Made by a program: the position numbers and the translations under genes
The notes under the pieces: generated by a model
What the model saw: only the letters and a program-made list of their open reading frames with translations
Database searches by the model: none
What the model was told of the DNA's origin: nothing
NCBI RefSeq assembly: GCF_001244545.1
Contig: NZ_LN852696.1
Location: 992,001-1,056,000 of the forward strand
DNA: 64,000 nucleotides
Direction: 5' to 3'
Source of the DNA: Candidatus Stoquefichus sp. SB1
Lineage (GTDB): Bacteria; Bacillota_I; Bacilli_A; Erysipelotrichales; Coprobacillaceae
Part shown: positions 3,189 through 16,218 of the stretch, piece after piece
Numbering within the stretch: position 1 is the first letter of the stretch
Layout of the letters: every line of letters begins with the position of its first letter

Positions 3189-3737
3189 GTGAATGAACAT
3201 GAACAAACACGTTATCTTTTTGCTCAAAGTGCTAAAGATTTAATGAATAAACGTCCATTAGATAAAATAACAGTGACAGATATTGTGAAACATAGTGGGA
3301 TGACAAGACAAACTTTTTATCGCTATTTTCAGGATAAATATGATCTGGTGAACTGGTATTTTGAAAAATTAGCGGATAAATCATTTCGTCAAATTGGAAA
3401 TTCTTCTACTTTAAGAGAAGGTTTGATTAAGAAATTTACATTTCTATTTAATGATAAAGTCTTTTTTATGCAAGCTTTTCGTTCTAAAGATTATAATAAT
3501 GTTGAAAACTATGATTATCAGTGTATCTTAGAATTTTATAAAAATATTATTCAAAAGAAAATTGGAGATATTCCTTCTGATATTATGTTCTTACTAGAAA
3601 TGTATTGTCATGGTTCCATTACAATGACAGTTGATTGGGCTATTGGTGGGATGCAAGAATCACCAGAAGTGATAGCTGACTTATTAATTGAAGCTTTACC
3701 ACCAAAATTAGAAAAACTTCTATCTGATTTACAATAA
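3189..3737 (+). CDS. TetR/AcrR-family transcriptional regulator (DhaS-like C-terminal type)
   Basis: 182 aa. The N-terminal helix-turn-helix (residues about 27-49, ITVTDIVKHSGMTRQTFYRYF) is a typical TetR DNA-binding domain; the C-terminal half resembles the TetR_C group found in dihydroxyacetone-kinase regulators. Starts with GTG at 3189 behind AAAGGGGTG; the ATG four bases later is out of frame. Flanked by terminators on both sides, so it is a single-gene unit. Target genes unknown; the nearest downstream genes are the polysaccharide locus, but the terminator and invertible segment separate them. Confidence 0.8.
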   Translation: MNEHEQTRYLFAQSAKDLMNKRPLDKITVTDIVKHSGMTRQTFYRYFQDKYDLVNWYFEKLADKSFRQIGNSSTLREGLIKKFTFLFNDKVFFMQAFRSKDYNNVENYDYQCILEFYKNIIQKKIGDIPSDIMFLLEMYCHGSITMTVDWAIGGMQESPEVIADLLIEALPPKLEKLLSDLQ

Positions 3738-3744
3738 TAGAAAA

Positions 3745-3785
3745 GGTCATTAATAAAGTTTTAATTCTTTATTAATGGCCTTTTT
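3745..3785. terminator. bidirectional intrinsic terminator between tetR and the invertible segment
   Basis: A 14-bp perfect stem GGTCATTAATAAAG (3745-3758) and CTTTATTAATGGCC (3767-3780), with G:C to G:T variation at one pair, is followed by TTTTT on the plus strand and by TTTTC on the minus strand. It ends tetR transcription and would also stop a leftward transcript from the promoter in the neighbouring invertible segment. Confidence 0.85.
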
Positions 3786-3794
3786 ATCATTTCA

Positions 3795-3820
3795 TTCACA
3801 GAATACAATATTCTACGAAA
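3795..3820 (+). repeat. left inverted repeat of the putative invertible promoter segment
   Basis: TTCACAGAATA-CAA-TATTCTACGAAA is a near-palindrome with centre CAA. Aligned to the reverse complement of the right copy at 3963-3988 it matches at 24 of 26 positions (mismatches at 3798 and 3815). The asymmetric centre (CAA here, TTG at right) shows that the copies are inverted, as expected for recombination that flips the DNA between them. Confidence 0.8.
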
Positions 3821-3960
3821 CAGATTATAACATAGTTCAATGAATTTTCAACCGAATTTAACAAATTTTGCTTTCATTTAGACTTATTTGTCATAAAAAT
3901 ATCACATTTAATAAGATAAATATTAGAGATAATGAAATAATAGATTGTTCATTGTCTTTT
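3821..3960. other. putative invertible (phase-variable) promoter segment, OFF orientation
   Basis: 140 bp bounded by inverted 26-bp repeats (3795-3820 and 3963-3988), located directly upstream of NusG-paralogue genes and a polysaccharide operon. This is the layout of invertible capsule promoters known from Bacteroides and other gut bacteria. The only consensus-quality promoter inside faces left, so the assembly captures the OFF state. No recombinase gene is present in the window; a serine or tyrosine recombinase elsewhere would be needed. Confidence 0.72.
3824..3851 (-). promoter_or_regulatory. strong promoter inside the invertible segment, pointing away from the polysaccharide genes
   Basis: Read on the minus strand: -35 TTGAAA (plus 3846-3851), 16-bp spacer, -10 TATAAT (plus 3824-3829). 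It fires leftward into the bidirectional terminator at 3745-3785. If the segment between the repeats were inverted, the same promoter would face the antiterminator gene at 4011. Only weak plus-strand elements are visible in the present orientation (TTGTCA 3888-3893, 18 bp, TAAGAT 3912-3917). Confidence 0.75.
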
Positions 3961-3989
3961 TTTTCGCAGAATATTGTATTCTGCGAAAA
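3961..3989 (+). repeat. right inverted repeat of the putative invertible promoter segment
   Basis: A perfect 13-bp-arm palindrome: TTTTCGCAGAATA (3961-3973), centre TTG, TATTCTGCGAAAA (3977-3989). It is the inverted partner of the copy at 3795-3820. It ends 21 bp before the start codon of the first antiterminator gene, so recombination would exchange the promoter without touching the gene or its ribosome site. Confidence 0.8.
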
Positions 3990-4010: not shown

Positions 4011-4511
4011 ATGTTTTGGTATGTTGCCAGATGTAAAGCTGGTAAAACAAAGAAACTTGTGAGTACATTAAATAAACAAGCAAACATGAACGCCTTTATA
4101 CCTAAAAGTGAAAGATGGTTTGGTAGACAAGGAAAGACTATTGAATTTATCGTTAAAGAACTCTATCCCGATTATGTGTTTATCAAGAGTAGTCTGGATA
4201 TGGAAAGCTTTGATAAAAGATTTAAAGAGTATTTTAAAACTATTAGTGGATTGATAGATTTACTTGAATATAAAGATACATATCCACTTACTAGTAATGA
4301 ACAGGTTTTATTAGAAAAGTTATTAGATAATGCTGATACGATCAAACATACAAAAGGAATTGTTGTAGATCAGAAATTTGTTCCAACTGATGGTCCCTTA
4401 GTAGGTTTAGAAGATATGATTAAAAAAGTTGATAAACATCGAAGAATAGCAACATTAGATACTAGTATTTTGACTGGAAAACTAATGGTTGCAATAGAGA
4501 TTGAATATTAA
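4011..4511 (+). CDS. loaP: NusG-paralogue transcription antiterminator, LoaP-like (first copy)
   Basis: 166 aa. The N-terminal NGN domain begins MFWYVARCKAGKTKKL and contains the conserved AFIPKSERW and PDYVFIKS segments; the C-terminal KOW-like domain has PTDGPLVGLEDMIKKVDKHRR, typical of LoaP proteins. This family rides with RNA polymerase and suppresses termination in long polysaccharide or polyketide operons. Start at 4011 chosen by GGAGGAG at 4000-4006; the frame remains open upstream across the inverted repeat, but with no ribosome site. It is the first gene downstream of the invertible promoter and overlaps the next paralogue by one base. Confidence 0.85.
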   Translation: MFWYVARCKAGKTKKLVSTLNKQANMNAFIPKSERWFGRQGKTIEFIVKELYPDYVFIKSSLDMESFDKRFKEYFKTISGLIDLLEYKDTYPLTSNEQVLLEKLLDNADTIKHTKGIVVDQKFVPTDGPLVGLEDMIKKVDKHRRIATLDTSILTGKLMVAIEIEY

Positions 4512-5008
4512 TGAATTGGTATGTCTTATATGTATTAAGTAATAAAACAAATAAAATACTTTCTAATTTGAATCAAAGAGAAGAACTTACTGCCTTTATA
4601 CCTAAAAGTGAAGTATTTCATAGGGAAGCAAAGACAAAGACGGTAAGAGATATGTTTAATAACTATATCTTTGTAAAGTCAGACATGAATCAAAGTGATT
4701 TTAATAATCTTTTGTTGTCTATGAAAGAAGAAAATGATGGACTTATTAAACAATTAGAGAATGCTGAAGTATCTGCTCTAAGAGAAAAAGAAATAGAATT
4801 CTTTAATACTGTATTAGATGATGAGTATGTTGCTAGAGTATCTGTTGGGTATCAAGAAAATGGTAAGACAGTTATTACGAGTGGACCATTACTTCATTAT
4901 CAGGATCATATTATTAGAGTTATTAAGCATCATTGTATAGCACAACTAGATTTACCTTTCTTTGATAGAAAGATAGTTCTAGGTGTTGAAATTAAAAGCA
5001 AGAATTGA
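4511..5008 (+). CDS. NusG-paralogue transcription antiterminator, LoaP-like (second copy)
   Basis: 165 aa, starting inside the stop codon of the first copy (TAATG). Clearly paralogous: MNWYVLYVLSNKTNKI, the shared AFIPKSE segment, NYIFVKSD, and a C-terminal TSGPLLHYQDHIIRVIKHH in place of the DGPLVGLEDMIKK of copy one. The KOW-like region is more diverged, so target RNA or partner binding may differ. In Bacteroides the antiterminator UpxY is paired with the unrelated inhibitor UpxZ; here both members are NusG paralogues. Antitermination or competition between the two is inference. Confidence 0.75.
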   Translation: MNWYVLYVLSNKTNKILSNLNQREELTAFIPKSEVFHREAKTKTVRDMFNNYIFVKSDMNQSDFNNLLLSMKEENDGLIKQLENAEVSALREKEIEFFNTVLDDEYVARVSVGYQENGKTVITSGPLLHYQDHIIRVIKHHCIAQLDLPFFDRKIVLGVEIKSKN

Positions 5009-5094
5009 GTGTTACGTTGGTTAACTGGCTGACACTTGTATTTGGAACATAAAAGCTAGTTTATTTGGGGTAAGGGGGAACTGTATCTTCTAGC
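5008..5094 (+). promoter_or_regulatory. structured leader upstream of the polysaccharide operon, candidate LoaP recognition RNA
   Basis: Two imperfect hairpins can be drawn. The first has AGTGT (5008-5012) with ACACT (5032-5036) enclosing GTTGG/CTGGC around TTAA. The second has GCTAG (5055-5059) with CTAGC (5090-5094) enclosing a G-rich stretch. They precede an intrinsic terminator at 5111-5134. LoaP is known to need an RNA hairpin in the leader of its target operon; that either hairpin serves this role is inference. Confidence 0.45.
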
Positions 5095-5110
5095 CCATAA
5101 ATATGGCTTA

Positions 5111-5134
5111 AACAGGTGATGAACCTGTTTTTTT
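5111..5134 (+). terminator. leader terminator ahead of the polysaccharide operon (antitermination target)
   Basis: AACAGGT (5111-5117), loop GATGA, ACCTGTT (5123-5129), then T to 5134. It lies between the antiterminator genes and the first biosynthetic gene, so transcription from the upstream promoter must read through it to reach the operon. Confidence 0.8.
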
Positions 5135-5344
5135 ATGTTCAAAAGAGAGGTGGGAAATTTGTTAAAGATAATAGAAGAAATAAAATTAGCAACTATCAAA
5201 TAACTACTTTATTAAAACTTTTAACAGTCAAATTATTATTAACTTAGAACCAAAAGATAATAACAAAGAACAAGATTGGTAAAAAGATTATAAGAAACAG
5301 TTTGAGAAAAGCTAAGTTTCTTTTAAAGATGGGGAGGTAATTTA
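5135..5344 (+). other. 210-bp non-coding stretch, possible remnant of a small gene
   Basis: After the leader terminator there is GAGAGGTGGG followed by a TTG-initiated 14-codon frame at 5160, closed by TAA. A second short frame reads NYFIKTFNSQ... to a TAA before 5290. Together they resemble debris of a short gene, but I cannot assign a family. GGGGAGG at the 3' end is the ribosome site of the acyltransferase gene. Confidence 0.3.
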
Positions 5345-6331
5345 ATGGAAAAGAATTATAACTTGCAAGTACTTCGGGGGATTGCATGTATTTTTGTGTG
5401 TCTTAATCATTTTACTTTTTTTAATAAATACGGATTTGGTAGTGCAGGAGTAGAAGTTTTTTTGATTTTATCAGGATATTTAACAATATTTAATTATTAT
5501 AAAAAAGGGGGAAATTTATCTGACCATTATCTAAAAAGAAAATTCATCACAATATTACCAATGTATTGGATTCTAACAGTATTAGTTTATATAGTTGGTT
5601 TAATAATACCCAGCATTTTTAATACTTTAGATTTTAGTTTTAAAAATCTGATATATTCACTTCTATTAATTCCTGGTAAAACTCCTTTCATTCCACCTGG
5701 ATGGACTTTAACATATATTTTTTATTTTTATATAATTGTTTATCTATGCAATTCATGTTTTAAACAGATAAGGCTAGAAACAAAAATTACGATTTGGATA
5801 GTGTTAGCTATTATTGTTTCTTTCATCATACATAATGAGTTTGTGATTAGTTTGAATAGTCCAATTATGATTGAATTTGTCTATGGTTTTATCTTGTATA
5901 GAATTAAAGATTTAAAATTTACTTCAAATAATAAAATTATAACTTCATTCATATCTATTATGTTAGTTCTTATTTTTTTCTTTCCAGGATTACGTTTATT
6001 TTTTCAAAACACTATATTAGATTGTAGATTTATTATTCAGGCGTTAATTACTACAGTTTTAATAAAAGGATTTTTGGATGTTGACTTATCGGGATTAAAG
6101 TCGAGTCATTTAAAAATGATTGGAGATATTTCGTTCACTATTTATTTAGCGCATGTACTAATAATTAGACCGTTTGATAAAATTGCTCGAATATTCAAAA
6201 TAGATACATCATTTGTAATGTTATTAATGATACCTATTTGCTTATTTTTTGTTGTGATAATATGCAAATATATTGATTTAATAAATAAAAAAATTTGTAT
6301 TTATTTAAATAGAATAAATATGGTGGGTTAA
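5345..6331 (+). CDS. acyltransferase family 3 membrane protein (polysaccharide O-acyl transfer)
   Basis: 328 aa, about ten hydrophobic segments. The N-terminus has the family hallmark: NLQVLRGIACIFVCLNHF, with the conserved arginine and the histidine of the first transmembrane region, then GVEVFLILSGY. Members move acetyl or other acyl groups onto exported glycans at the cytoplasmic membrane. Ribosome site GGGGAGG precedes ATG 5345. First intact biosynthetic gene after the leader terminator; a decayed acetyltransferase gene follows immediately. The exact acyl donor and sugar acceptor cannot be read. Confidence 0.82.
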   Translation: MEKNYNLQVLRGIACIFVCLNHFTFFNKYGFGSAGVEVFLILSGYLTIFNYYKKGGNLSDHYLKRKFITILPMYWILTVLVYIVGLIIPSIFNTLDFSFKNLIYSLLLIPGKTPFIPPGWTLTYIFYFYIIVYLCNSCFKQIRLETKITIWIVLAIIVSFIIHNEFVISLNSPIMIEFVYGFILYRIKDLKFTSNNKIITSFISIMLVLIFFFPGLRLFFQNTILDCRFIIQALITTVLIKGFLDVDLSGLKSSHLKMIGDISFTIYLAHVLIIRPFDKIARIFKIDTSFVMLLMIPICLFFVVIICKYIDLINKKICIYLNRINMVG

Positions 6332-6335
6332 TTGT

Positions 6336-6897
6336 AGAACGAATTTATTAATAATAGGAGCAGGTGGACATGGTCGTTGTTGTTTGGATATTGCAAGAGA
6401 TATGAATGTATTCGATAGGATATCCTTTCTTGATGATAATCACATTAATGAACTAATCAATGATTGTGAGGTTATTGAACCAATTGATGAGATGAGTTCA
6501 TATTATCCAGAATACACATATATTCATATTGCGATAGGCAATAATGTGGCTAGAAGTAATTTGTTATTAAGAGCGAAAGAAATTGGATATTCATTATCAG
6601 TATTAAAGCACCTTACTAGCGTAGTATCTAAATACGAATCTTTGGATGTGGAAGTGTTTTATTCACATATTCGGTTGTAGAAGCCAATAGCAAGATAGGT
6701 AAGGGAAGTATAATTGCTTCTAATGTTGTTATAAATCATGATGTTCAAATTGACGAATATGTTTTGTAAATACTGGGACGATAATTCGTCCAAATACAAT
6801 AATAAAAAAATATGTAAGTATAGGCAGTCAATGCTTAATTGAAATGAACACAATAATTGAAAAGAGAAAAATAATTAAAGATGGTGTCAAAATGTAG
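6336..6897 (+). pseudogene. broken NeuD-family sugar O-/N-acetyltransferase
   Basis: Pieces of one left-handed beta-helix acetyltransferase lie in three frames. The first, without a start codon, reads NLLIIGAGGHGRCCLDIAR (N-terminal nucleotide-fold domain) and continues to about 6680. The second, from about 6657, reads VVEANSKIGKGSIIASN plus NHDVQID (hexapeptide repeats) and stops at about 6769. The third, from about 6770, reads NTGTIIRPNTII then YVSIGSQCLIEMN, ending at TAG 6895. At least two frameshifts plus loss of the start show a dead gene. It would have acetylated a nucleotide-linked sugar for this polysaccharide. Confidence 0.75.
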
Positions 6898-6932
6898 CCA
6901 TTTTTTTAATTTGGGAAATTATGGAGGAAAAA

Positions 6933-7577
6933 ATGATAACTGAAAAACAAAAAAAGTATTTGCCACTCAAAAGAGGAATTGATGTTATATTAAGTGGTGC
7001 TGCAATTGTTGTATTAAGTCCAATACTTGGACTACTAGCTTTAGTTATTAAATTAGATTCACCAGGACCAGTACTATTTAAGCAAAAAAGAATTGGTAAA
7101 GATAAAAAACTATTTGAGATTTATAAGTTTAGAACTATGAGAATAGATGCTCCTAGAGACATGCCTACTCATATGTTAAAAGATCCAGATCAATTTATTA
7201 CTAAAACTGGTAAGTTTTTAAGGAAGACTTCTTTAGATGAATTACCTCAAATTTTTAACATCTTTACAGGCAAGATGTCCGTAATAGGACCAAGACCTGC
7301 TTTATGGAATCAAGATGATTTAATAGCAGAAAGAGATAAATATTTTGCTAATGATATAACACCAGGATTAACTGGGTGGGCACAAATCAATGGTAGGGAT
7401 GAATTAGAGATAGAAGTAAAGGCAAAATTGGATGGAGAGTATTATTCAAATTTCTCACTTGTTTTTGATATAAAATGTTTTTTTAGCACAATTGTTTCTG
7501 TCCTCAAACATGACGGTGTAGTAGAAGGAAGTACAGGAACAAGAAAAAGTGATAGCGAGGTTAATAAGCATGGATAA
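6933..7577 (+). CDS. priming sugar-phosphate transferase (undecaprenyl-phosphate sugar phosphotransferase)
   Basis: 214 aa. Transfers a sugar-1-phosphate from a UDP-sugar to undecaprenyl phosphate, the first step of repeat-unit assembly. One N-terminal membrane hairpin (about residues 18-40) is followed by the conserved catalytic core: SPGPVLFKQKRIGK, YKFRTMR, LRKTSLDELPQ with the D-E pair, MSVIGPRPAL, and PGLTGWAQINGRDE. It is the short form without the extra N-terminal domain of WcaJ/WbaP. ATG 6933 is used because GGAGG (6923-6927) precedes it; ATG 6921 overlaps that site. The next gene overlaps its stop. Confidence 0.9.
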   Translation: MITEKQKKYLPLKRGIDVILSGAAIVVLSPILGLLALVIKLDSPGPVLFKQKRIGKDKKLFEIYKFRTMRIDAPRDMPTHMLKDPDQFITKTGKFLRKTSLDELPQIFNIFTGKMSVIGPRPALWNQDDLIAERDKYFANDITPGLTGWAQINGRDELEIEVKAKLDGEYYSNFSLVFDIKCFFSTIVSVLKHDGVVEGSTGTRKSDSEVNKHG

Positions 7578-8313
7578 GTTAGTTTCAATAATAACTCCAG
7601 CATATAATTGTGAAGAATTTATTGAAGAAACAATCGATAGTGTATTGAATCAAACTTATCAAAATTGGGAAATGATTATAATTGATGATTGTTCTACAGA
7701 CAAAACATCTGTATTAGTAAATAAATATTCACTAGAAGATTCACGAATAAAGTTGGTGTCATTAAATAAAAATGGAGGAGTATCAAATGCCCGAAATATT
7801 GGTTTATCTAAAGCGCAGGGATCTTTCGTTGCTTTTTTAGATAGTGATGATATCTGGGCAAAGAATAAATTAGAAAATCAAATTTCGTTTATGGAAAAAA
7901 ATGATTATTATATAACGTACTCTTCATATGCAAAATTTATAACAACAACACAAGATGTTAAGTCAGTTATATCCGTACCACATAAAATGGAAAAAAATGA
8001 TATATTGAAAAATACCATTATAGGCTGTTTAACAGTTATTATAAATGTTGAAGAAGTGGGAAGTATTGAAATGCCAAACATTTCACATGCTGAAGATCAA
8101 TGTACATGGATAAATGTATTGGAAAGAGGATATGTTGCTTATGGAATAAATGAAGTTCTTGCCTATTATAGAATTAATTCTACGTCATTAAGTGGAAATA
8201 AAATAGAAGCTGCAAAGAAACAATGGACTGTGTATAGAAAATATCATCATTTCTCTATATTGAAAAGTTTATATTATTACTTTTACTATGCTATTAATGT
8301 GTTAAAACGATAG
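7570..8313 (+). CDS. glycosyltransferase family 2 (GT-A)
   Basis: 247 aa. Starts MDKLVSIITPAYNCEEF and carries the GT2 features LNQTYQNWEMIIIDDCSTD, NGGVSNARNIGL and the metal-binding FLDSDDIW. An inverting transferase using a nucleotide sugar at the cytoplasmic face of the membrane; sugar and linkage unknown. The true start is the ATG at 7570, overlapping the last codons of the priming transferase; GAGG at 7557-7560 serves as the ribosome site. Part of one co-directional operon. Confidence 0.87.
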   Translation: MDKLVSIITPAYNCEEFIEETIDSVLNQTYQNWEMIIIDDCSTDKTSVLVNKYSLEDSRIKLVSLNKNGGVSNARNIGLSKAQGSFVAFLDSDDIWAKNKLENQISFMEKNDYYITYSSYAKFITTTQDVKSVISVPHKMEKNDILKNTIIGCLTVIINVEEVGSIEMPNISHAEDQCTWINVLERGYVAYGINEVLAYYRINSTSLSGNKIEAAKKQWTVYRKYHHFSILKSLYYYFYYAINVLKR

Positions 8314-8361
8314 TGTTTTTGGGAGAATGGGTATTGAGATAATATGAAAGTGGAGGAAATT

Positions 8362-9504
8362 ATGAAAAAAATAGCAATTATTACTATATATCATAAAAAT
8401 TATAATTATGGTGGACAACTTCAAGCATATGCTATGACAAGTTTTCTAAATAAAAAGGGATATACAGCAAAACAAATAGATTTCGATAGAGTTAGTGGTG
8501 GTTTTTTAAAAAATAAGGGAAAAGTTTTTATGAAGTGGCCTTATTCTAAGAAAAAAGAATTTATTATAAATCATTTTCAAAGATGGAAATCATCTAAAAA
8601 TAGTGGAACGTTTACTATGCAATATAATAATACTATTAAGAAATTTGATGATTTTATATTAGAAATACCACATACATCCAAATATAATAAATCAAATATT
8701 TCTCAAATAAGTGATAATTATGATTTTTATATTACTGGAAGTGATCAGGTTTGGAATATGGATTATTGCACAGACGAATATTTTTTAGAATTTGTTAAAG
8801 ATAAGAAAAAATGTATCTCTTATGCTGCTAGTATGCAAGTTTTAGATTTAGGGGAAACTTCAAGACAAAAATTATTTAAACAAATAAAGGATTATAAGGC
8901 TATTTCAGTAAGAGAAAGTGGTGCAAAAAATTTAATTGAATCATTAGGAATAGATAATGTTAGTTTGGTTTGTGATCCTGTAATGCTTTTGGATAAAGCA
9001 CAATGGGACGAAATTGCAAAAGAACCTGATACTAAGAAAAAATATTTGTTTGCGTATTTAATTCAAAGAAATAAGAAAGAACGATCAATTGAATGCGAGA
9101 AACTTGCTGACAAACTAGGGTTAGAATTAATATGCATTACTTCTCCTGGATGGGAAAATGATTTGAGTTCAACAATTAATCAAGTTCCTAATGGTATTGG
9201 TCCAAAAGAATTCTTAGGATTAATAAAAAACGCTGAATATATTGTTACTGACTCATTTCATGCTGTTTCATTCTCTATTATTTTTAATAAAGTATTTTTC
9301 AGTTATGGGGAAGATGATAGAAAAATAACGTTGTTAAATTTTTTTGGATTAAAGAATCAAATAGTTAAAAAATCTGGATTACAAGAAACATATGCAAATA
9401 GAGTGATTGATTACTTAGAAGTTAATAAAAAATTAAGTGCATATAATAACAGTTCTATAGAATATTTAGAGAAAGCATTAAATAGTGGTGAAGAAAATGA
9501 TTAG
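8362..9504 (+). CDS. polysaccharide pyruvyl transferase family protein
   Basis: 380 aa. Begins MKKIAIITIYHKNYNYGGQLQ and has the PF04230 pattern: DFYITGSDQVWN in the middle, CISYAAS, a second domain with VCDPVML, and TDSFHAVSFSIIF near the C-terminus. Family members transfer pyruvate from phosphoenolpyruvate onto a sugar as a ketal, adding negative charge to the polymer. GGAGG precedes ATG 8362 (an upstream ATG at 8344 lacks a site). It overlaps the FrhB-like gene by 8 bp, a pairing common in gut-bacterial polysaccharide loci. Confidence 0.85.
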   Translation: MKKIAIITIYHKNYNYGGQLQAYAMTSFLNKKGYTAKQIDFDRVSGGFLKNKGKVFMKWPYSKKKEFIINHFQRWKSSKNSGTFTMQYNNTIKKFDDFILEIPHTSKYNKSNISQISDNYDFYITGSDQVWNMDYCTDEYFLEFVKDKKKCISYAASMQVLDLGETSRQKLFKQIKDYKAISVRESGAKNLIESLGIDNVSLVCDPVMLLDKAQWDEIAKEPDTKKKYLFAYLIQRNKKERSIECEKLADKLGLELICITSPGWENDLSSTINQVPNGIGPKEFLGLIKNAEYIVTDSFHAVSFSIIFNKVFFSYGEDDRKITLLNFFGLKNQIVKKSGLQETYANRVIDYLEVNKKLSAYNNSSIEYLEKALNSGEEND

Positions 9505-10663
9505 TCCTTCTAATGATTATAAGAAATGTATTAATTGTGGGGTGTGTGAAAGTGTTTGTAAAAATGACGCTATATATTTTGAAAATAACAATGAAGGTTT
9601 TCTTTATGCAAAAATTGATAGTAAAAAATGTATAGGTTGTTTACAGTGTCAAAAAAACTGTATCGCCAATATCGAGTTAGAATACAATCTAATAGAAAGT
9701 ATGCGAGGCTATGCCGGAAAGTATATGGTTAAAGAAGAAAGAATTAAATCTACAAGTGGGGGATTTTGTGATGCATTATCTAAATATGTAATCAAAAATA
9801 ATGGATGTGTTTTTGGAGTAGCATATAGTGAAGATTTTAAATTAACAGAATATATATGTGTAAATAATTTTAAAGATTTATCTAAAATACGTGGTGTAAA
9901 ATATTGTCAATCTACTAATCCAAACATAGCTTTGCTAGAAAAAAAACTAAATGAAACTAATCTGGTTTTAATTATAGGATTACCTTGTGTTATAACTGCA
10001 TTAAGCAATGCTTTTTCTAGAAAATATAATAATTTATTACTCGTAGCATTAGTATGCCATGGACCCACTAGTACAAAAGTTCATAATAAATTTCTTAGTA
10101 AATACAATGAAAATTTTAATTGTATACAACTAAGAAAAAAATATGGTGGAAAAGATTATTTTTATTTAGCTAATGATAATAGAGTTATAGATAAAAGACT
10201 ATGGGAAAATACATCATATTTTGAAGCGTTTAATATTCTAAATAATGAAGCATGTTACTCTTGCAAATACAAACTAAGTTCTATTAAGGCAGACATATTA
10301 GTTGGGGATTATTGGGGATTAGAAGATGATAAAGAATTTTTTTCTGAAGATGGAAATAATGCAATCATATTTATGAATGACAGAATTAAAGAAGATGAAT
10401 TATTTAGTAATTTGCCTAATTTTGAATATAAAAAGAAAACTATTAATGATATTGTTTCTAGAAATAAATCGATTATTTGTAAAGGAGAAAAATCACCATA
10501 TTATGATAACTTTATAAAATATATTGATACCTGTGCAAACTTAGATAACACTATAAAGAAAACAATTCCTTTTAAAATTAGAATAAAAAAAAATATAAAA
10601 ATTATAATTATGAAATTTTTACCAATAAAAGTAATAACTTTCGTACGACAAAGGAGAAAATAA
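9497..10663 (+). CDS. FrhB-like iron-sulphur protein (F420 hydrogenase/dehydrogenase beta-subunit family)
   Basis: 388 aa. N-terminal ferredoxin-type region with two clusters, CINCGVCESVC and CIGCLQCQKNC, then the FrhB N- and C-terminal domains (STSGGFCDAL, GLPCVITAL, ACYSCKYK, DILVGDYWG). In deazaflavin-using archaea this family handles F420; in polysaccharide loci it is found beside pyruvyl transferases with unknown role. Possible reductive modification of the glycan is inference. Start chosen at ATG 9497 with GGTGA upstream, inside the end of the pyruvyl transferase gene. Confidence 0.82.
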   Translation: MISPSNDYKKCINCGVCESVCKNDAIYFENNNEGFLYAKIDSKKCIGCLQCQKNCIANIELEYNLIESMRGYAGKYMVKEERIKSTSGGFCDALSKYVIKNNGCVFGVAYSEDFKLTEYICVNNFKDLSKIRGVKYCQSTNPNIALLEKKLNETNLVLIIGLPCVITALSNAFSRKYNNLLLVALVCHGPTSTKVHNKFLSKYNENFNCIQLRKKYGGKDYFYLANDNRVIDKRLWENTSYFEAFNILNNEACYSCKYKLSSIKADILVGDYWGLEDDKEFFSEDGNNAIIFMNDRIKEDELFSNLPNFEYKKKTINDIVSRNKSIICKGEKSPYYDNFIKYIDTCANLDNTIKKTIPFKIRIKKNIKIIIMKFLPIKVITFVRQRRK

Positions 10664-10664
10664 G

Positions 10665-11558
10665 ATGATTATTTTAAGAATGATAGGTGGATTAGGAAAT
10701 CAAATGTCTCAAGTTGCTTATTCGGCTATATTGGCTAAAAAACTAAACAAAAAATTATATATAGACACTAGTTCATATAATAATTATAAAATAAGACCAT
10801 GTTCTATACAAAAATTCAGATTAGATGATGGTATAGAATTTTACAAAGACTATAGTAAAATCCAATATAAACGACTACGTATTTCTCAAAGGATATATCA
10901 TTTACTTCAATTTGTTATAGGAAAGCGAAAACAAATGGGAATAAAATGGTATAACTTTTTTTGTGAAATGGGTCATTATTATTCGTTTGATTCAGATTAT
11001 TATGGATTTCCAGATTCAAAAAAAGACGTTGTAGATGTATATGGGTATTTTTTAGCAGAAGAGTATTTTCGTGGGAATAAAGAATATATAAAAAAACTTT
11101 TTTTATTAGATGATAAGTACATATCTAATACTGCTAAAAACTATTATTCAAGTATAACAAATTGTATATGTCCTGTAGCAATAAGCATTAGACTGCAAGA
11201 TGATTATCTAAAAAGTAATGTTCACAATGTATGCACAAAAGAATATTTTTTGAAATCTATACAAGTGATACAAGAAAAATTTCCAAATGCCTATTTCTTT
11301 ATTTTTGCTGATGATATTGAGAGAGCTAAAGAATTGGGATTAAATATACCTTCAACATATATTGAAAATATGACTGATGTTGAAGGTATGTACCTTTTAA
11401 GTAAGTGCAAGCATTATATCATTTCTAATAGTTCTTTTTCATGGTGGGGAGCATATTTAGGTGAATTTTCTGAAAAAGTAATAATTGCTCCAAAAAAATG
11501 GATGAACAATTCAATAAATTATTCATCAAAATATTATGAAGGAGTTGTTAAGATTTGA
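10665..11558 (+). CDS. alpha-1,2-fucosyltransferase-like protein (GT11)
   Basis: 297 aa. N-terminus MIILRMIGGLGNQMSQVAYS is the GT11 GGLGNQ signature; further in are SIRLQDDY (region of the donor-binding motif) and SNSSFSWWGAYLG near the C-terminus. GT11 enzymes transfer fucose from GDP-fucose, so the polymer probably carries terminal fucose or a related 6-deoxyhexose. No GDP-fucose synthesis genes are in the window. AGGAG lies at good spacing before ATG 10665. Confidence 0.87.
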   Translation: MIILRMIGGLGNQMSQVAYSAILAKKLNKKLYIDTSSYNNYKIRPCSIQKFRLDDGIEFYKDYSKIQYKRLRISQRIYHLLQFVIGKRKQMGIKWYNFFCEMGHYYSFDSDYYGFPDSKKDVVDVYGYFLAEEYFRGNKEYIKKLFLLDDKYISNTAKNYYSSITNCICPVAISIRLQDDYLKSNVHNVCTKEYFLKSIQVIQEKFPNAYFFIFADDIERAKELGLNIPSTYIENMTDVEGMYLLSKCKHYIISNSSFSWWGAYLGEFSEKVIIAPKKWMNNSINYSSKYYEGVVKI

Positions 11559-12391
11559 TGAGAACTGATAAAAATAACACTATAAATATTTGTGCTGGAA
11601 TTACAACATTCTATCCAACTATAGATGATGTGGAAAACATAATGATGTTAAGTAATTGGTTTGAAAAAATCTACATATATGATAATACACCAAATAGTAA
11701 TTTAGATTTTACTGAACAAAATATTATGATTATAACTTCTGGTGAAAACAATGGATTAGGTATTGCATGTGATAAAATGTGTAAGATTGCAAAAAAAGAA
11801 AAATTTCCATTCATAATGTTTTTAGATCAAGACAGTCGAATTGATTATAAAGATTTAGAAATAATGTCTAATTTTATAAAATCAAATATCCAATTAGCTA
11901 CTATTTATTGCCCGAAGATAAGTGTTATTAATAATGAAGAAAAACGTAAAGAACAAGAAAAAAAATTTTTTGAATTTGAACTGATCAAATGGTGCATTAC
12001 TTCGGGAACTATTCTAAGACTTTGCGATTATGGAGAAATATTTTTTGATAAAAATTACTTTATAGATAGGTTGGATATGGATTTATGTACGCAAATAATC
12101 AAAAAAGGAGGGAAAATATGTCGTATTAATAGTGCTATTTTGGAGCAAAAGCTTGGTAATAATTATAAAAATAGTTATGCAACACATAGTGCTATTAGAC
12201 ATTATTATATAGCTAGAAATAGATTATATTATAATCACAAATATCAAATTAGTGCTTATGTTAGTGTTTTGCAGTTTATTAAGCATTTTTTAAATATTTT
12301 GTTCTATGAGCAAGAAAAATTAAAAAAAATTATTTGCGTAAAGGAGGGTATAAATGATTTCAAAAAAAACAGAATGGGGAAAAAAGTATGA
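11558..12391 (+). CDS. glycosyltransferase family 2, rhamnosyltransferase-like
   Basis: 277 aa. GT-A fold: CAGITTFYPTIDDVEN, YIYDNTPN, NNGLGIACDKMC, and the metal-binding FLDQDSR typical of WbbL-type rhamnosyltransferases. The C-terminal basic helix region probably touches the membrane. Sugar specificity is not certain. The start at ATG 11558 shares bases with the stop of the fucosyltransferase gene (TGATG), suggesting translational coupling; TTG at 11555 is an alternative. Confidence 0.8.
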   Translation: MRTDKNNTINICAGITTFYPTIDDVENIMMLSNWFEKIYIYDNTPNSNLDFTEQNIMIITSGENNGLGIACDKMCKIAKKEKFPFIMFLDQDSRIDYKDLEIMSNFIKSNIQLATIYCPKISVINNEEKRKEQEKKFFEFELIKWCITSGTILRLCDYGEIFFDKNYFIDRLDMDLCTQIIKKGGKICRINSAILEQKLGNNYKNSYATHSAIRHYYIARNRLYYNHKYQISAYVSVLQFIKHFLNILFYEQEKLKKIICVKEGINDFKKNRMGKKV

Positions 12392-13469
12392 TATTGTTTT
12401 TGTATTGCCTATGCCAACCAATAAAATAGTTGGTGGATATAAAATGGTGTATGAATACTCTAATTATCTTGTTAATAAAGGGTTAACAGTTTGTTTAATT
12501 TATAATGGATGTAATGGTAAGAATTCAAAAGGAATTCCAAAACCAATTATTTTAGGAATGAGATTTATAATGGCAAAAAATGGTCCAAAATGGTTTGATT
12601 TAGATAAAAGAGTTGTTCAAAAAACTATTAGTTGTTTTGATGAAAAACTTTTGCCTTCTTCATATATTTATATTGCTACAGTTGCTCGATCAGCAATATT
12701 TATAAATTCTATTGACAAGGCGAAGAGCAGGAAAATATATTTTATTCAAGGATATGAAGATTGGGAAATTAGCGAAGAAGAATTACATGAAACATATTCT
12801 TTTAATATGAAAAAAATTACAGTATCTAAATGGCTGAAAGATATTATTAGTAAATATTCTAGTTCAGAGGTTGAGTACTTACCAAACGGAATTAATTGTA
12901 ATATTTTTACTGAAAGTAAACCATTTAATACTAGAAATAATTATACTATTTCAATGTTATTTCACAATAGTGTTTTAAAGGGGGCAAATATAGGTATAGA
13001 TGTTTTACTCGCTTTGAAAGAAAAGTACCCTCTACTTGAGGCACATTTATTTGGCACTCCAAAAAGACCTGATAGCTGGCCTGAATGGATTAAATACACA
13101 CAAAATGCGAGTCCTTATGAAGTAAGCGCAATAATGAATAATACTAAAGTTTTTCTTTGTACTAGTAAATCGGAAGGTTATGGGTTAACTGTGTTAGAGG
13201 CAATGTCTTGTGGTTGTGCTATTGTAACTACAAAGTGTGGTGGCATAAATGAGTTTACTACTAATAATAATACTTTGTATTGTGAAATTGACGATAAAGA
13301 TGGATTGATTGCAGCTGTTTCTCTTTTATTTAATAATAATAAAATGTGTAAGCAGTTTGGAAATTTAAGTTTACAAATTTCAAAAGAATTTAATATTGAC
13401 TATTTAAAAGAAAAATTTTATTTAATCATTCAAGAAGAATTATGTAATATAAAGGAGGAAAACAAATGA
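12354..13469 (+). CDS. glycosyltransferase family 4 (GT-B)
   Basis: 371 aa. GT-B retaining transferase: N-terminal Rossmann domain with LPMPTNKIVGGYKM, linker motif VEYLPNGIN, and the C-terminal donor-binding region KSEGYGLTVLEAM followed by GCAIVTTKCGG. The ribosome site AAGGAGGG lies within the preceding gene, giving a 38-bp overlap and firmly supporting ATG 12354. Donor sugar unknown. Confidence 0.87.
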   Translation: MISKKTEWGKKYDIVFVLPMPTNKIVGGYKMVYEYSNYLVNKGLTVCLIYNGCNGKNSKGIPKPIILGMRFIMAKNGPKWFDLDKRVVQKTISCFDEKLLPSSYIYIATVARSAIFINSIDKAKSRKIYFIQGYEDWEISEEELHETYSFNMKKITVSKWLKDIISKYSSSEVEYLPNGINCNIFTESKPFNTRNNYTISMLFHNSVLKGANIGIDVLLALKEKYPLLEAHLFGTPKRPDSWPEWIKYTQNASPYEVSAIMNNTKVFLCTSKSEGYGLTVLEAMSCGCAIVTTKCGGINEFTTNNNTLYCEIDDKDGLIAAVSLLFNNNKMCKQFGNLSLQISKEFNIDYLKEKFYLIIQEELCNIKEENK

Positions 13470-14815
13470 TAGTTTTTTTAATGTTAGTTATACTATTTTT
13501 TATGGTTTTTTCTTATATTACTGAAAAAAATTTGTTTAATCCAATTATGATATTTAATGGTGCGTTTTTTATTTTAGTTTTATTATATTCTTTTCGATTG
13601 TTTGGTATATATAGTGTTAATACAATAGTTTTTGATTATATTCTTATTGGAATACTTTTGTTTAATTTAGGAGCTATATTTATTAGATTACTTTCTGGAA
13701 ATTTTTCGGGTCATATTGGTTCTAAGTCTATGTTTAAGTTTACAAATTTAGAAATCAAGAAATGGAATCATGTATACAACATTCTTATTAAATGTGTAAT
13801 TATTGCAATTATTATAGAGTTTATTTATGTTATACCATCGATTGAATATTTATTGCAAGGTAATTCGCTTTATGCTTTACGATATGTTGCTGCGAATTCA
13901 TTGAATGGTGCTAACTCAACAATTATGGTTATACTGCATTCGTATTTTGCTGTACCATTTCTTTTTATTGCTTTACCTGTTTCCTGTATAGAATTTATAT
14001 GTGAACGTAAGAAAAAACTATTAATACTTGCAATCATTCTTGATATATTATTCTTCTTTACAAATGCTGAAAGAATGGCGTTTGTGTATCCTGTAATTTA
14101 TATAATTAGTTCACTTCTTTTATTAAGGAATGGTAGAAATAGCATTGTTGATAAAAAACAAAAGAAAAAAATAATTATTATTTTTTGTATTATCATATTT
14201 GCAATTTATTTATCAACAATTATTAGAAGTTCAGGAATCAATCAACAGTCTGAAACCTTTTTTAATTCAATGTACCGATATATTATCGGTGCATTGCCTA
14301 ACTTTTCGCAAAAACTAAATGATTCACAGATTCAGCCATTGTATTCAATGGGACAAGTAACTCTTTATGGATTTTATAATATGTTTAATACTATTTATGA
14401 AATATTATTCCATAATACATTACAGTTTTTTTCTAATGGACAATTATTGTGGGATTTAATTAGAGGTGGAATTGTATTTATAGATACTTCGGGTAAACTA
14501 TATAATTTTTGTACTACAGGATTTATTTATTTCTATGCAGATTATGGAGTTTTTGGTATCTGTTTTTTTAGTACACTTTTTGGAATGCTTTCTGAGTATT
14601 TCTATATAAAAGTATTGAGGAAGCAGACTATGTTCAACATGTTGATATATTTAAATATTATGCAATCGCTTGCGATGTTTATTCTTTATAATATGTACAG
14701 TAATGTTCAATTTGTTTTAGCTATTGTTTATATTATTATATTTTTTAATGGTAAATTTAAAATGAAAATTAATTTATCAAAAAATAACAATTCTAGTTAT
14801 GGTGGAGTGCGGTAA
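13466..14815 (+). CDS. wzy: O-antigen/polysaccharide polymerase (Wzy-like)
   Basis: 449 aa and very hydrophobic, about 12 membrane segments, with a large extracytoplasmic region after residue 260 (IRSSGINQQSE onward), as in oligosaccharide repeat-unit polymerases. These join lipid-linked repeat units on the outer face of the membrane. Identification rests on topology and context (between transferases and flippase), since Wzy sequences are poorly conserved. AAAGGAGG precedes ATG 13466, which overlaps the GT4 stop by 4 bp. Confidence 0.78.
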   Translation: MIVFLMLVILFFMVFSYITEKNLFNPIMIFNGAFFILVLLYSFRLFGIYSVNTIVFDYILIGILLFNLGAIFIRLLSGNFSGHIGSKSMFKFTNLEIKKWNHVYNILIKCVIIAIIIEFIYVIPSIEYLLQGNSLYALRYVAANSLNGANSTIMVILHSYFAVPFLFIALPVSCIEFICERKKKLLILAIILDILFFFTNAERMAFVYPVIYIISSLLLLRNGRNSIVDKKQKKKIIIIFCIIIFAIYLSTIIRSSGINQQSETFFNSMYRYIIGALPNFSQKLNDSQIQPLYSMGQVTLYGFYNMFNTIYEILFHNTLQFFSNGQLLWDLIRGGIVFIDTSGKLYNFCTTGFIYFYADYGVFGICFFSTLFGMLSEYFYIKVLRKQTMFNMLIYLNIMQSLAMFILYNMYSNVQFVLAIVYIIIFFNGKFKMKINLSKNNNSSYGGVR

Positions 14816-14817
14816 AT

Positions 14818-16218
14818 ATGAAAATAAAAATAACAAAATATGATGTGATTTGGAATTGGGTAGGTATAATTGTTTCATTGTTTTCGAATTTTTTAATGAT
14901 ACCATTTTTAGTATTGTATTTAGATAGTGATACTTATGGACTTTGGAATGTATTTGTCTCTTTAGGAAGTATTTCAGTTTTATTTGATTTTGGTTTTAAT
15001 TCAATGTTTTCAAGGAATGTATCTTATTGTTGGAGTGGGGTTAATGAATTAAAAAAAGAAGGAGTAATGCAGGCCAATAAGGATGCTAAAACGAATTATT
15101 TATTGCTTGGAAAGGTAATTAAAACTTGTCAATTAATATATTTTTTTATTTCAATAGTAGCTTTTATAGGATTATCAACAATTGGAACAATTTATATAAT
15201 ATATGTGTCTAAAGAAATATTTAATATGAATATTTTATATGCATGGATTATTTATGCAATAGGTGTTTTTCTAAATTTGTTTTATGGTTACTATGATGCG
15301 TTTTTACGAGGCGTAGGAGAAGTTGGTACAGTAAATAAAATTAGAACAATTGCTAAAGTAGTACAAATAACTGTGACTGTAGTTCTTTTGTATTTAGGAT
15401 TAAATTTAATCGGTGTAGCAATTGCATATGTTATTTATGGAATGATTTTCAGAATATTATGTAAAAGAGCATTTTACTCTATTGATGATATTTCAATGAA
15501 TCTTAACAAAAAATCCAAAATTGATAGATGTGATATTAAACAGATTTTTGAAGTAGTATGGTATAACGCATGGAAAGATGGAGTTGTTTCAATAGCAAAT
15601 TATATTTCGAATCAGGTTACGACGATTTTATGTTCTCTATATTTAGGCTTGACGGCAACAGGAGAATTTGGATTGATAGTGCAGTTATTCTCAGCAATTG
15701 CTCAAATTTCTGGATCCCTTTTCAGTGTTTATCAGCCTTCATTACAAGAAGCGTATGCTAGGAGAGAAAAAGAATATTCGCAAAGAGTTTTTTCTTTCTC
15801 AATTATTGTTTTTGGACTTTTATATGTTATAGGTTCAATTGCTGTAATAGTAATAATTATTCCTATTCTTAAACATATGCGTCCACAAATGACATTTAAT
15901 ATTTCTGTGTTAATGCTTCTTTGCGTTTATCAAGGCGTATTAAAATATAGAGATTGTTATGCTTGCTATTTAGCAGGAACTAATAGATTAATCTATTATA
16001 AGTCATTTCTTTTTTCAGCGATAGTATGCCTATTATTATCATTAATATTCTTAAAATATTTTGATTTGGGGATTATTGGACTTGGAATAGCCCAGATAAT
16101 AAGTCAATTGATATATAACGTTTGGTACTGGCCAAGATTGGTTGATAATGAGTTATCGTTGAATTTTACAATGAAATATAAAAAATTTATTAGTGTGTTA
16201 CAGGATAAAAAATTATAA
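14818..16218 (+). CDS. wzx: polysaccharide flippase (Wzx-like, MOP superfamily)
   Basis: 466 aa with about 12-14 membrane segments, starting IVSLFSNFLMIPFLVLYL and with a TYGLWNVFVSLGS segment typical of MOP-type Wzx proteins. It should flip undecaprenyl-diphosphate-linked repeat units to the outside. Ribosome site GGTGGAG. It is the last intact gene of the continuous biosynthetic operon, and a decayed acyltransferase follows. Confidence 0.85.
   Translation: MKIKITKYDVIWNWVGIIVSLFSNFLMIPFLVLYLDSDTYGLWNVFVSLGSISVLFDFGFNSMFSRNVSYCWSGVNELKKEGVMQANKDAKTNYLLLGKVIKTCQLIYFFISIVAFIGLSTIGTIYIIYVSKEIFNMNILYAWIIYAIGVFLNLFYGYYDAFLRGVGEVGTVNKIRTIAKVVQITVTVVLLYLGLNLIGVAIAYVIYGMIFRILCKRAFYSIDDISMNLNKKSKIDRCDIKQIFEVVWYNAWKDGVVSIANYISNQVTTILCSLYLGLTATGEFGLIVQLFSAIAQISGSLFSVYQPSLQEAYARREKEYSQRVFSFSIIVFGLLYVIGSIAVIVIIIPILKHMRPQMTFNISVLMLLCVYQGVLKYRDCYACYLAGTNRLIYYKSFLFSAIVCLLLSLIFLKYFDLGIIGLGIAQIISQLIYNVWYWPRLVDNELSLNFTMKYKKFISVLQDKKL

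Follow-up and report, generated by a model that had tools for sequence, protein, structure and literature searches.

A very probable tyrosine-recombinase promoter switch upstream of a LoaP-like NusG pair and a polysaccharide operon in Candidatus Stoquefichus sp. SB1, with six similar loci in the same genome

Promoter inversion as a means of capsule switching is most familiar from Bacteroides. PSC of Bacteroides fragilis is known as a capsule locus without a switch. The capsule loci of this species are described with the Mpi invertase and with UpxY/UpxZ (Krinos 2001, Coyne 2003, Chatzidaki-Livanis 2009/2010, as cited in PMC11892184 and PMC12691694). Antitermination by LoaP has been described for dfn/mln of Bacillus velezensis (PMC12691694). 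In a read-based survey, the median number of invertons was zero for Bacillus-like Firmicutes, and in inverton group 139 of hCom2, with invertase group 35, clostridial inverted repeats lie near a tyrosine recombinase and inversion is seen in reads (PMC11892184). The nearest reported Gram-positive cases are the switches of RecV in Clostridioides difficile and the megabase capsule inversions of Eggerthella lenta (PMC13174815). A literature search found no paper on inversion in Coprobacillus or on phase variation in Thomasclavelia ramosa. The RecV enzyme belongs to the tyrosine recombinases, and to our knowledge no LoaP-like pair is known at its switches.

The DNA analysed here, called the window, is a 64-kb stretch (G000:C6:992001-1056000) within the 3.59-Mb genome of Candidatus Stoquefichus sp. 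SB1. Its segment 3807-3975 is very probably a phase-variable invertible promoter that is flipped by a tyrosine recombinase and drives a NusG pair and a polysaccharide operon. This reading is based on direct analysis of the sites, spacers, promoter geometry, gene order and, across species, both orientations. The elements of the locus, in window positions, are as follows.

3189-3737, plus strand: TetR-family gene upstream of the switch (Pfam TetR_N/TetR_C_8)
3740-3786, both strands: bidirectional terminator-like hairpin, folding z -8.7 / -8.0, flanked by T-runs
3794-3820, plus strand: left putative recombination site, ATTCACAGAA-TACAATA-TTCTACGAAA, outer half degenerate
3804-3810, plus strand: 7-bp spacer TACAATA of the left site, presumed strand-exchange region; its partner is TATTGTA at 3972-3978
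3807-3975, no strand: proposed invertible segment, 168 bp between the site centres
3824-3851, minus strand: promoter TTGAAA-16-TATAAT with extended TG; the -10 element ends 13 nt from the AGAA box; it points left (OFF)
3962-3988, plus strand: right putative recombination site, TTTCGCAGAA-TATTGTA-TTCTGCGAAA, with perfect palindromic arms
4011-4511, plus strand: LoaP-like NusG paralogue A, first of a tandem pair (PF02357; A clade)
4511-5008, plus strand: LoaP-like NusG paralogue B, second of the pair (PF02357; B clade)
5009-5035, plus strand: leader hairpin, candidate recognition element of the paralogue, folding z -3.1
5041-5136, plus strand: conserved leader with the TTGGGGTAAGGGGGAACT motif and a terminator (5110-5130 plus U-run), z -3.1
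5345-13469, plus strand: polysaccharide operon (Pfam)
13466-16218, plus strand: two more open reading frames in line with the operon, without a Pfam match

An earlier note on this DNA had described two inverted 26-bp repeats around a single consensus-grade promoter that points left into a bidirectional terminator, with antiterminator genes and a polysaccharide operon downstream, and this description was borne out. The arms at 3795-3820 and 3962-3987 are complementary at 24 of 26 positions and lie 141 nt apart. The opposite centres that it gave to the repeats, CAA and TTG, are real as well, and can be refined to the middle of a 7-bp spacer (TACAATA and TATTGTA). Each repeat is itself a palindromic site in which 10-bp arms flank this spacer; the spacer of the left site is the exact inverted match of the right one, the spacers of the other six pairs in the genome differ, and the two mismatches of the left site both fall in its outer arm. 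Such a 10-7-10 layout, with short inverted arms and a spacer identical in both sites, is that of a tyrosine-recombinase site. When the window was searched with the 21-nt site pattern, allowing up to three mismatches, the two repeats were the only copies, and 100 shuffles gave none.

The promoter (minus strand, 3851..3824) matches the consensus at 11/12 and is the best match in the region. Plus-strand candidates reach 9/12 at most, and the total number of promoter candidates in the region is at the chance level given by shuffles. The hairpin at 3740-3786 folds on both strands, with -22.6 and -16.0 kcal/mol. The two NusG-family genes, 4011-4511 and 4511-5008, are followed by genes for an acyltransferase, a sugar transferase, GT2, a pyruvyl transferase, an FrhB-like protein, GT11, GT2 and GT1 (Pfam). 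In the window locus, inverted recombination sites bracket a promoter that lies ahead of an operon, which is the arrangement of a promoter inverton.

The rest of the genome was searched by pattern and by inspection of the surroundings, and the copies found were resolved into pairs. The further copies of the site to which the earlier note had looked do exist: there are seven pairs, at C6:995.8 kb (the window), C2:124.8, C2:213.2, C4:176.6, C4:294.3, C5:465.2/469.6 and C6:748.0 kb, each with its private matching spacer. Every site is TTTCGCAGAA-N7-TTCTGCGAAA or a close variant. Within each pair the 7-bp spacers are exactly identical when inverted, and they are distinct among all seven pairs. Picking the sites by their arms alone, with the spacer ignored, gave the same seven pairs, and all the spacers matched. 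The 27-mers of one pair differ at 2-6 positions, all of them in the arms. Since the spacers are matched within pairs and differ between pairs, the spacer is taken to be the strand-exchange region and not a protein operator.

Immediately downstream of all seven pairs come LoaP-like NusG paralogue genes, one or two per locus, and then a polysaccharide operon, whose genes include sugar transferases, glycosyltransferases, DegT aminotransferases and ATP-grasp proteins. As in Bacteroides fragilis, the polysaccharide operons are numerous, and each has an invertible promoter of its own, a NusG-type antiterminator and a second small gene. The OFF orientation given earlier for the window promoter is supported: at each of the seven loci the promoter faces away from the genes, and in six of them an extended -10 element ends 12-13 nt from the AGAA box of one site. 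The all-OFF state of the seven switches may reflect the sequenced culture or a locked state.

Apart from the housekeeping NusG and one other, all NusG paralogues of the genome sit at the seven switch loci. The exception, at C4:592 kb (G000:C4:592260; L120:6264-6752), belongs to an eighth polysaccharide locus with a single LoaP-like gene. No pair of recombination sites was found at this locus, which is possibly a non-switching coat. In having one LoaP-like polysaccharide locus without a switch, the genome again resembles B. fragilis.

Relatives from the same family, with one genome per species, were scored identically, and 21 site pairs upstream of NusG genes were collected. The comparison with related species revealed, across species only, the same promoter geometry in both orientations. 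In 16 of the 21 loci the promoter points away from the genes (OFF), in three it points towards them (ON; G036 L113, G035 L114 and G007 L117), and at two loci, L024 and its relative L067, the promoter is a variant one, likewise directed away from the genes. In 19/21 pairs, one arm and only one has an extended -10 element (TGnTATAAT) at a distance of 12-13 nt, and the spacer is exactly inverted within the pair in 21/21. The ON loci belong to other species, and their promoter DNA beyond the core elements is little like that of the window. L113 is the closest ON relative of the window's NusG pair that was found (82-83% identity). In the sister species G001, the switch orthologous to that of the window, which has the same spacer and is flanked by a TetR gene 90% identical to the window's, is OFF. 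In G010, a fourth such case outside the three ON loci, the promoter points towards the genes and the partner site has decayed.

A search of the family with protein B showed that most A/B pairs have a site directly upstream and that a minority subtype does not. At L142, L144 and L147 (G036, G037 and G038), the A/B pairs have a fixed upstream TTCGTAGAGTACTTTAAT sequence and no site pair; this subtype may derive from a switch whose decay left a fixed promoter.

The search for a recombinase in the rest of the genome, also foreseen in the earlier note, yielded candidates of the tyrosine class. In many relatives, a tyrosine recombinase gene lies inside a segment of ~1.1 kb and faces the opposite way from the promoter. 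In this genome, one such gene is inside the C5 switch and another is directly beside the C2:213 switch (2/7 loci). The switch-linked recombinases have Phage_integrase and SAM-like domains, share the catalytic motifs GLRxGE, HxLRH and LGHS...LYV, and form a cluster distinct from the genome's remaining tyrosine recombinases, C6:661 excepted. The C5 recombinase is a full-length frame of 316 aa with the motifs GLRIGE, HSLRH and LGHSNVGTTLNLYV. At the C2:213 locus the arms have diverged, and the recombinase is of a separate type, common to this locus and its sister-species relative; the six other loci share the arms seen at the C5 switch. The window's own segment holds no recombinase gene, and a trans-acting enzyme is therefore inferred. 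The best candidate is the tyrosine recombinase at C5:468.7-469.6 kb, L027:8691-9641, and its action in trans is the most economical assumption because six loci share the C5 switch arms. The C6:748 switch shows that a recombinase gene can leave or enter a segment: its sister-species orthologue is a 1213-bp segment with a recombinase, and here it is 192 bp long and has none. Action in trans on several inverted-repeat switches is also known for a Bacillota recombinase, RecV, whose targets are flagella, CwpV and others, in contrast to the set of capsule operons found here (PMC5386303, PMC2784873). The hCom2 group mentioned above is similar, by its description, in having inverted repeats near a tyrosine recombinase (PMC11892184).

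From these observations we infer catalysis and the acting recombinase, antitermination and its specificity, polysaccharide expression, the role of A and flipping in this strain. A tyrosine recombinase would pair the two 27-bp sites and swap strands within the matching 7-bp spacers, and this exchange would invert the 168 bp between the site centres. As long as the switch is OFF, the extended -10 promoter would fire leftward, and the terminator-like hairpin at 3740-3786 would halt it. Inversion would place the end of the -10 element near 3954 and the transcription start ~50 nt upstream of the ATG that opens paralogue A. The ON transcript would run through the A and B genes, and B, acting on the leader hairpin and terminator at 5009-5136, would allow RNA polymerase into the polysaccharide operon.

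The palindromes could also be operators, with a DNA-binding regulator, e.g., the product of the neighbouring TetR gene, looping or repressing the promoter and no inversion taking place. Each site is a near-perfect palindrome that flanks the promoter, and a TetR gene adjoins. Nevertheless, this is very improbable, as an operator needs no locus-specific spacer that is exactly inverted within the pair at all 21 loci. The promoter occurs in both orientations among relatives, recombinases sit within the segments, and the identified upstream genes at other loci differ in kind (e.g., germination protease, cyclophilin-like protein). The orientations among relatives also bear on the idea that the promoter does its work while pointing left, yielding an antisense or small RNA, and is fixed in that orientation for this purpose. 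The 16 of 21 family loci so oriented, and two more pointing the same way with a variant promoter, would suit it. There is only a slight chance of this, as in the window the bidirectional terminator would end such an RNA within ~90 bp, three loci with the same geometry are oppositely oriented, and the genes flanking the left side vary among loci.

Inversion itself could be catalysed by an Mpi-like serine recombinase, as in B. fragilis. Three genes of the serine-recombinase family (PF00239) are present in the genome, and none of them lies at any of the seven loci; an unlinked serine enzyme could in principle still act on the switches in trans. Serine invertases exchange over 2 bp, and the 10-7-10 site with its long matched spacer fits tyrosine recombinases, which are physically present within segments, so that a serine enzyme is highly unlikely to be responsible. 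The switch may instead be locked in the OFF state in this strain, with no recombinase acting on the sites. All seven switches are OFF, as is the sister-species orthologue, the window segment lacks a recombinase, and the assembled C5 switch region contains an IS30-like insertion as well as an exact duplication that looks suspicious. Against this stand the full length and the catalytic motifs of the C5 recombinase frame and the spacers, which stayed exactly matched though the arms drifted, suggesting continued exchange. A locked switch is accordingly rather unlikely, and the preferred reading is a promoter that still inverts. The capsule phase variation that the earlier note had seen in the layout of the window is thus supported by the rest of the genome and by the relatives.

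The logic of this locus is that of the B. fragilis capsule loci, with a different recombinase class, site and NusG branch. Here the recombinase is of the tyrosine and not the serine class and often lies within the segment, the site is another one, the spacers are private to each locus, and the lineage is Gram-positive and LoaP-bearing. Moreover, both small proteins are NusG paralogues nearer LoaP than UpxY. LoaP (NCBIfam NF033641) was the best family for all seven paralogues scanned, with 80-105 bits (104.9 for A and 93.7 for B), which is below the cut-off of 125; UpxY (NF033644) was second-best, with 35-50 bits for the window pair against a cut-off of 100. In a tree of 43 NusG paralogues from 23 loci, the first genes (A) and the second genes (B) formed two clades with support 97/98, and this separation indicates that the A-then-B order is old.

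As in the LoaP system, a NusG paralogue lies beside a biosynthetic operon whose leader has a small hairpin followed by an intrinsic terminator; unlike in that system, the paralogues form a tandem A/B pair, score under the LoaP cut-off and have an invertible promoter upstream, and the window hairpin shows no clear UNCG loop (PMC12691694). UUCG/AUCG is found near the hairpin apex in L025/L065. Most loci carry a short hairpin, a TTGGGGTARGGGGRAACT motif and a terminator between B and the first polysaccharide gene, and this leader element is present in L023, L025, L027, L028, L065, L066, L113, L117 and others. In the L023 variant, the motif is within the terminator hairpin itself (z -6.4). The GGGGTAG core of the leader resembles the core GGTAG of the RfaH ops element. 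A comparison of the switch and leader with Rfam gave no match at the gathering threshold or at E<=1.

Among 15 loci, the similarity of the hairpin follows B (partial r 0.53 given A) and not A (0.10 given B), an indication rather than a test, as the loci are related. At G001 L066, A is like its positional orthologue (80%), and both B (88%) and the hairpin at 5009-5035 (identical) are like those of the window. This suggests that B reads the leader in the LoaP manner (PMC12691694). The correlation could also be mere linkage, B and the leader being neighbours. The fixed A-then-B pair and the leader that tracks B make the specificity of an antiterminator for its own operon directly testable.

A wider picture can be proposed tentatively, and we would put it at somewhat less than an even chance: a capsule-choice circuit of Bacillota that evolved separately from that of Bacteroides, in which seven tyrosine-recombinase switches with private spacers and one fixed locus are combined, each B opens the leader terminator of its own operon, and A works across loci, e.g., as an inhibitor, to limit the cell to a single coat. 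The same capsule-switching logic in a Gram-positive gut family, with another recombinase class and another NusG branch, would in itself be a clear instance of convergence. One genome with seven natural switches also provides a defined set for studying the choice of surface coat. Eggerthella lenta is also a Gram-positive gut bacterium in which inversions rewire LoaP-carrying capsule loci; in contrast to the switches here, these are megabase inversions at a 16-bp repeat, with no adjacent recombinase and no promoter flip (PMC13174815).

The switch family extends beyond the capsule loci of this bacterial family. When 295 genomes of the order were searched by pattern, one matched pair (G192) and scattered single matches turned up outside the family. 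The exact 21-nt site is also present in Lachnospiraceae and other contigs, several of which have a matched partner and a tyrosine recombinase. Contigs of other gut bacteria (L006, L007, L008, L010 and L016) carry the same arms and a partner site with a matching spacer, and several of them have a tyrosine recombinase. No NusG A/B genes were found on these contigs, and they were rejected as the same system and kept as related sites. Viral contigs, when searched, gave no ON-junction pattern and no relative of NusG-B. The site pairs of L102 (G040:C24) and L106 (G040:C13) enclose a tyrosine recombinase in stretches without NusG A/B genes.

Some further genes and assembly features were noted along the way. 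The gene at 5948-6916 of L028, which abuts a site, was considered as a recombinase and rejected, as it encodes a germination protease (Pfam PF03418). Three tandem tyrosine recombinase genes at G000:C4:625060-627484 are likely a mobile element unrelated to the switches. IS30-like transposase frames lie inside the C5 switch, and L027:5566-8898 (G000:C5:465.6-468.9 kb) contains an exact tandem duplication of 1,666 bp with a single N between the copies. This duplication is probably a scaffolding artefact, and the true C5 segment may be about 2.8 kb long.
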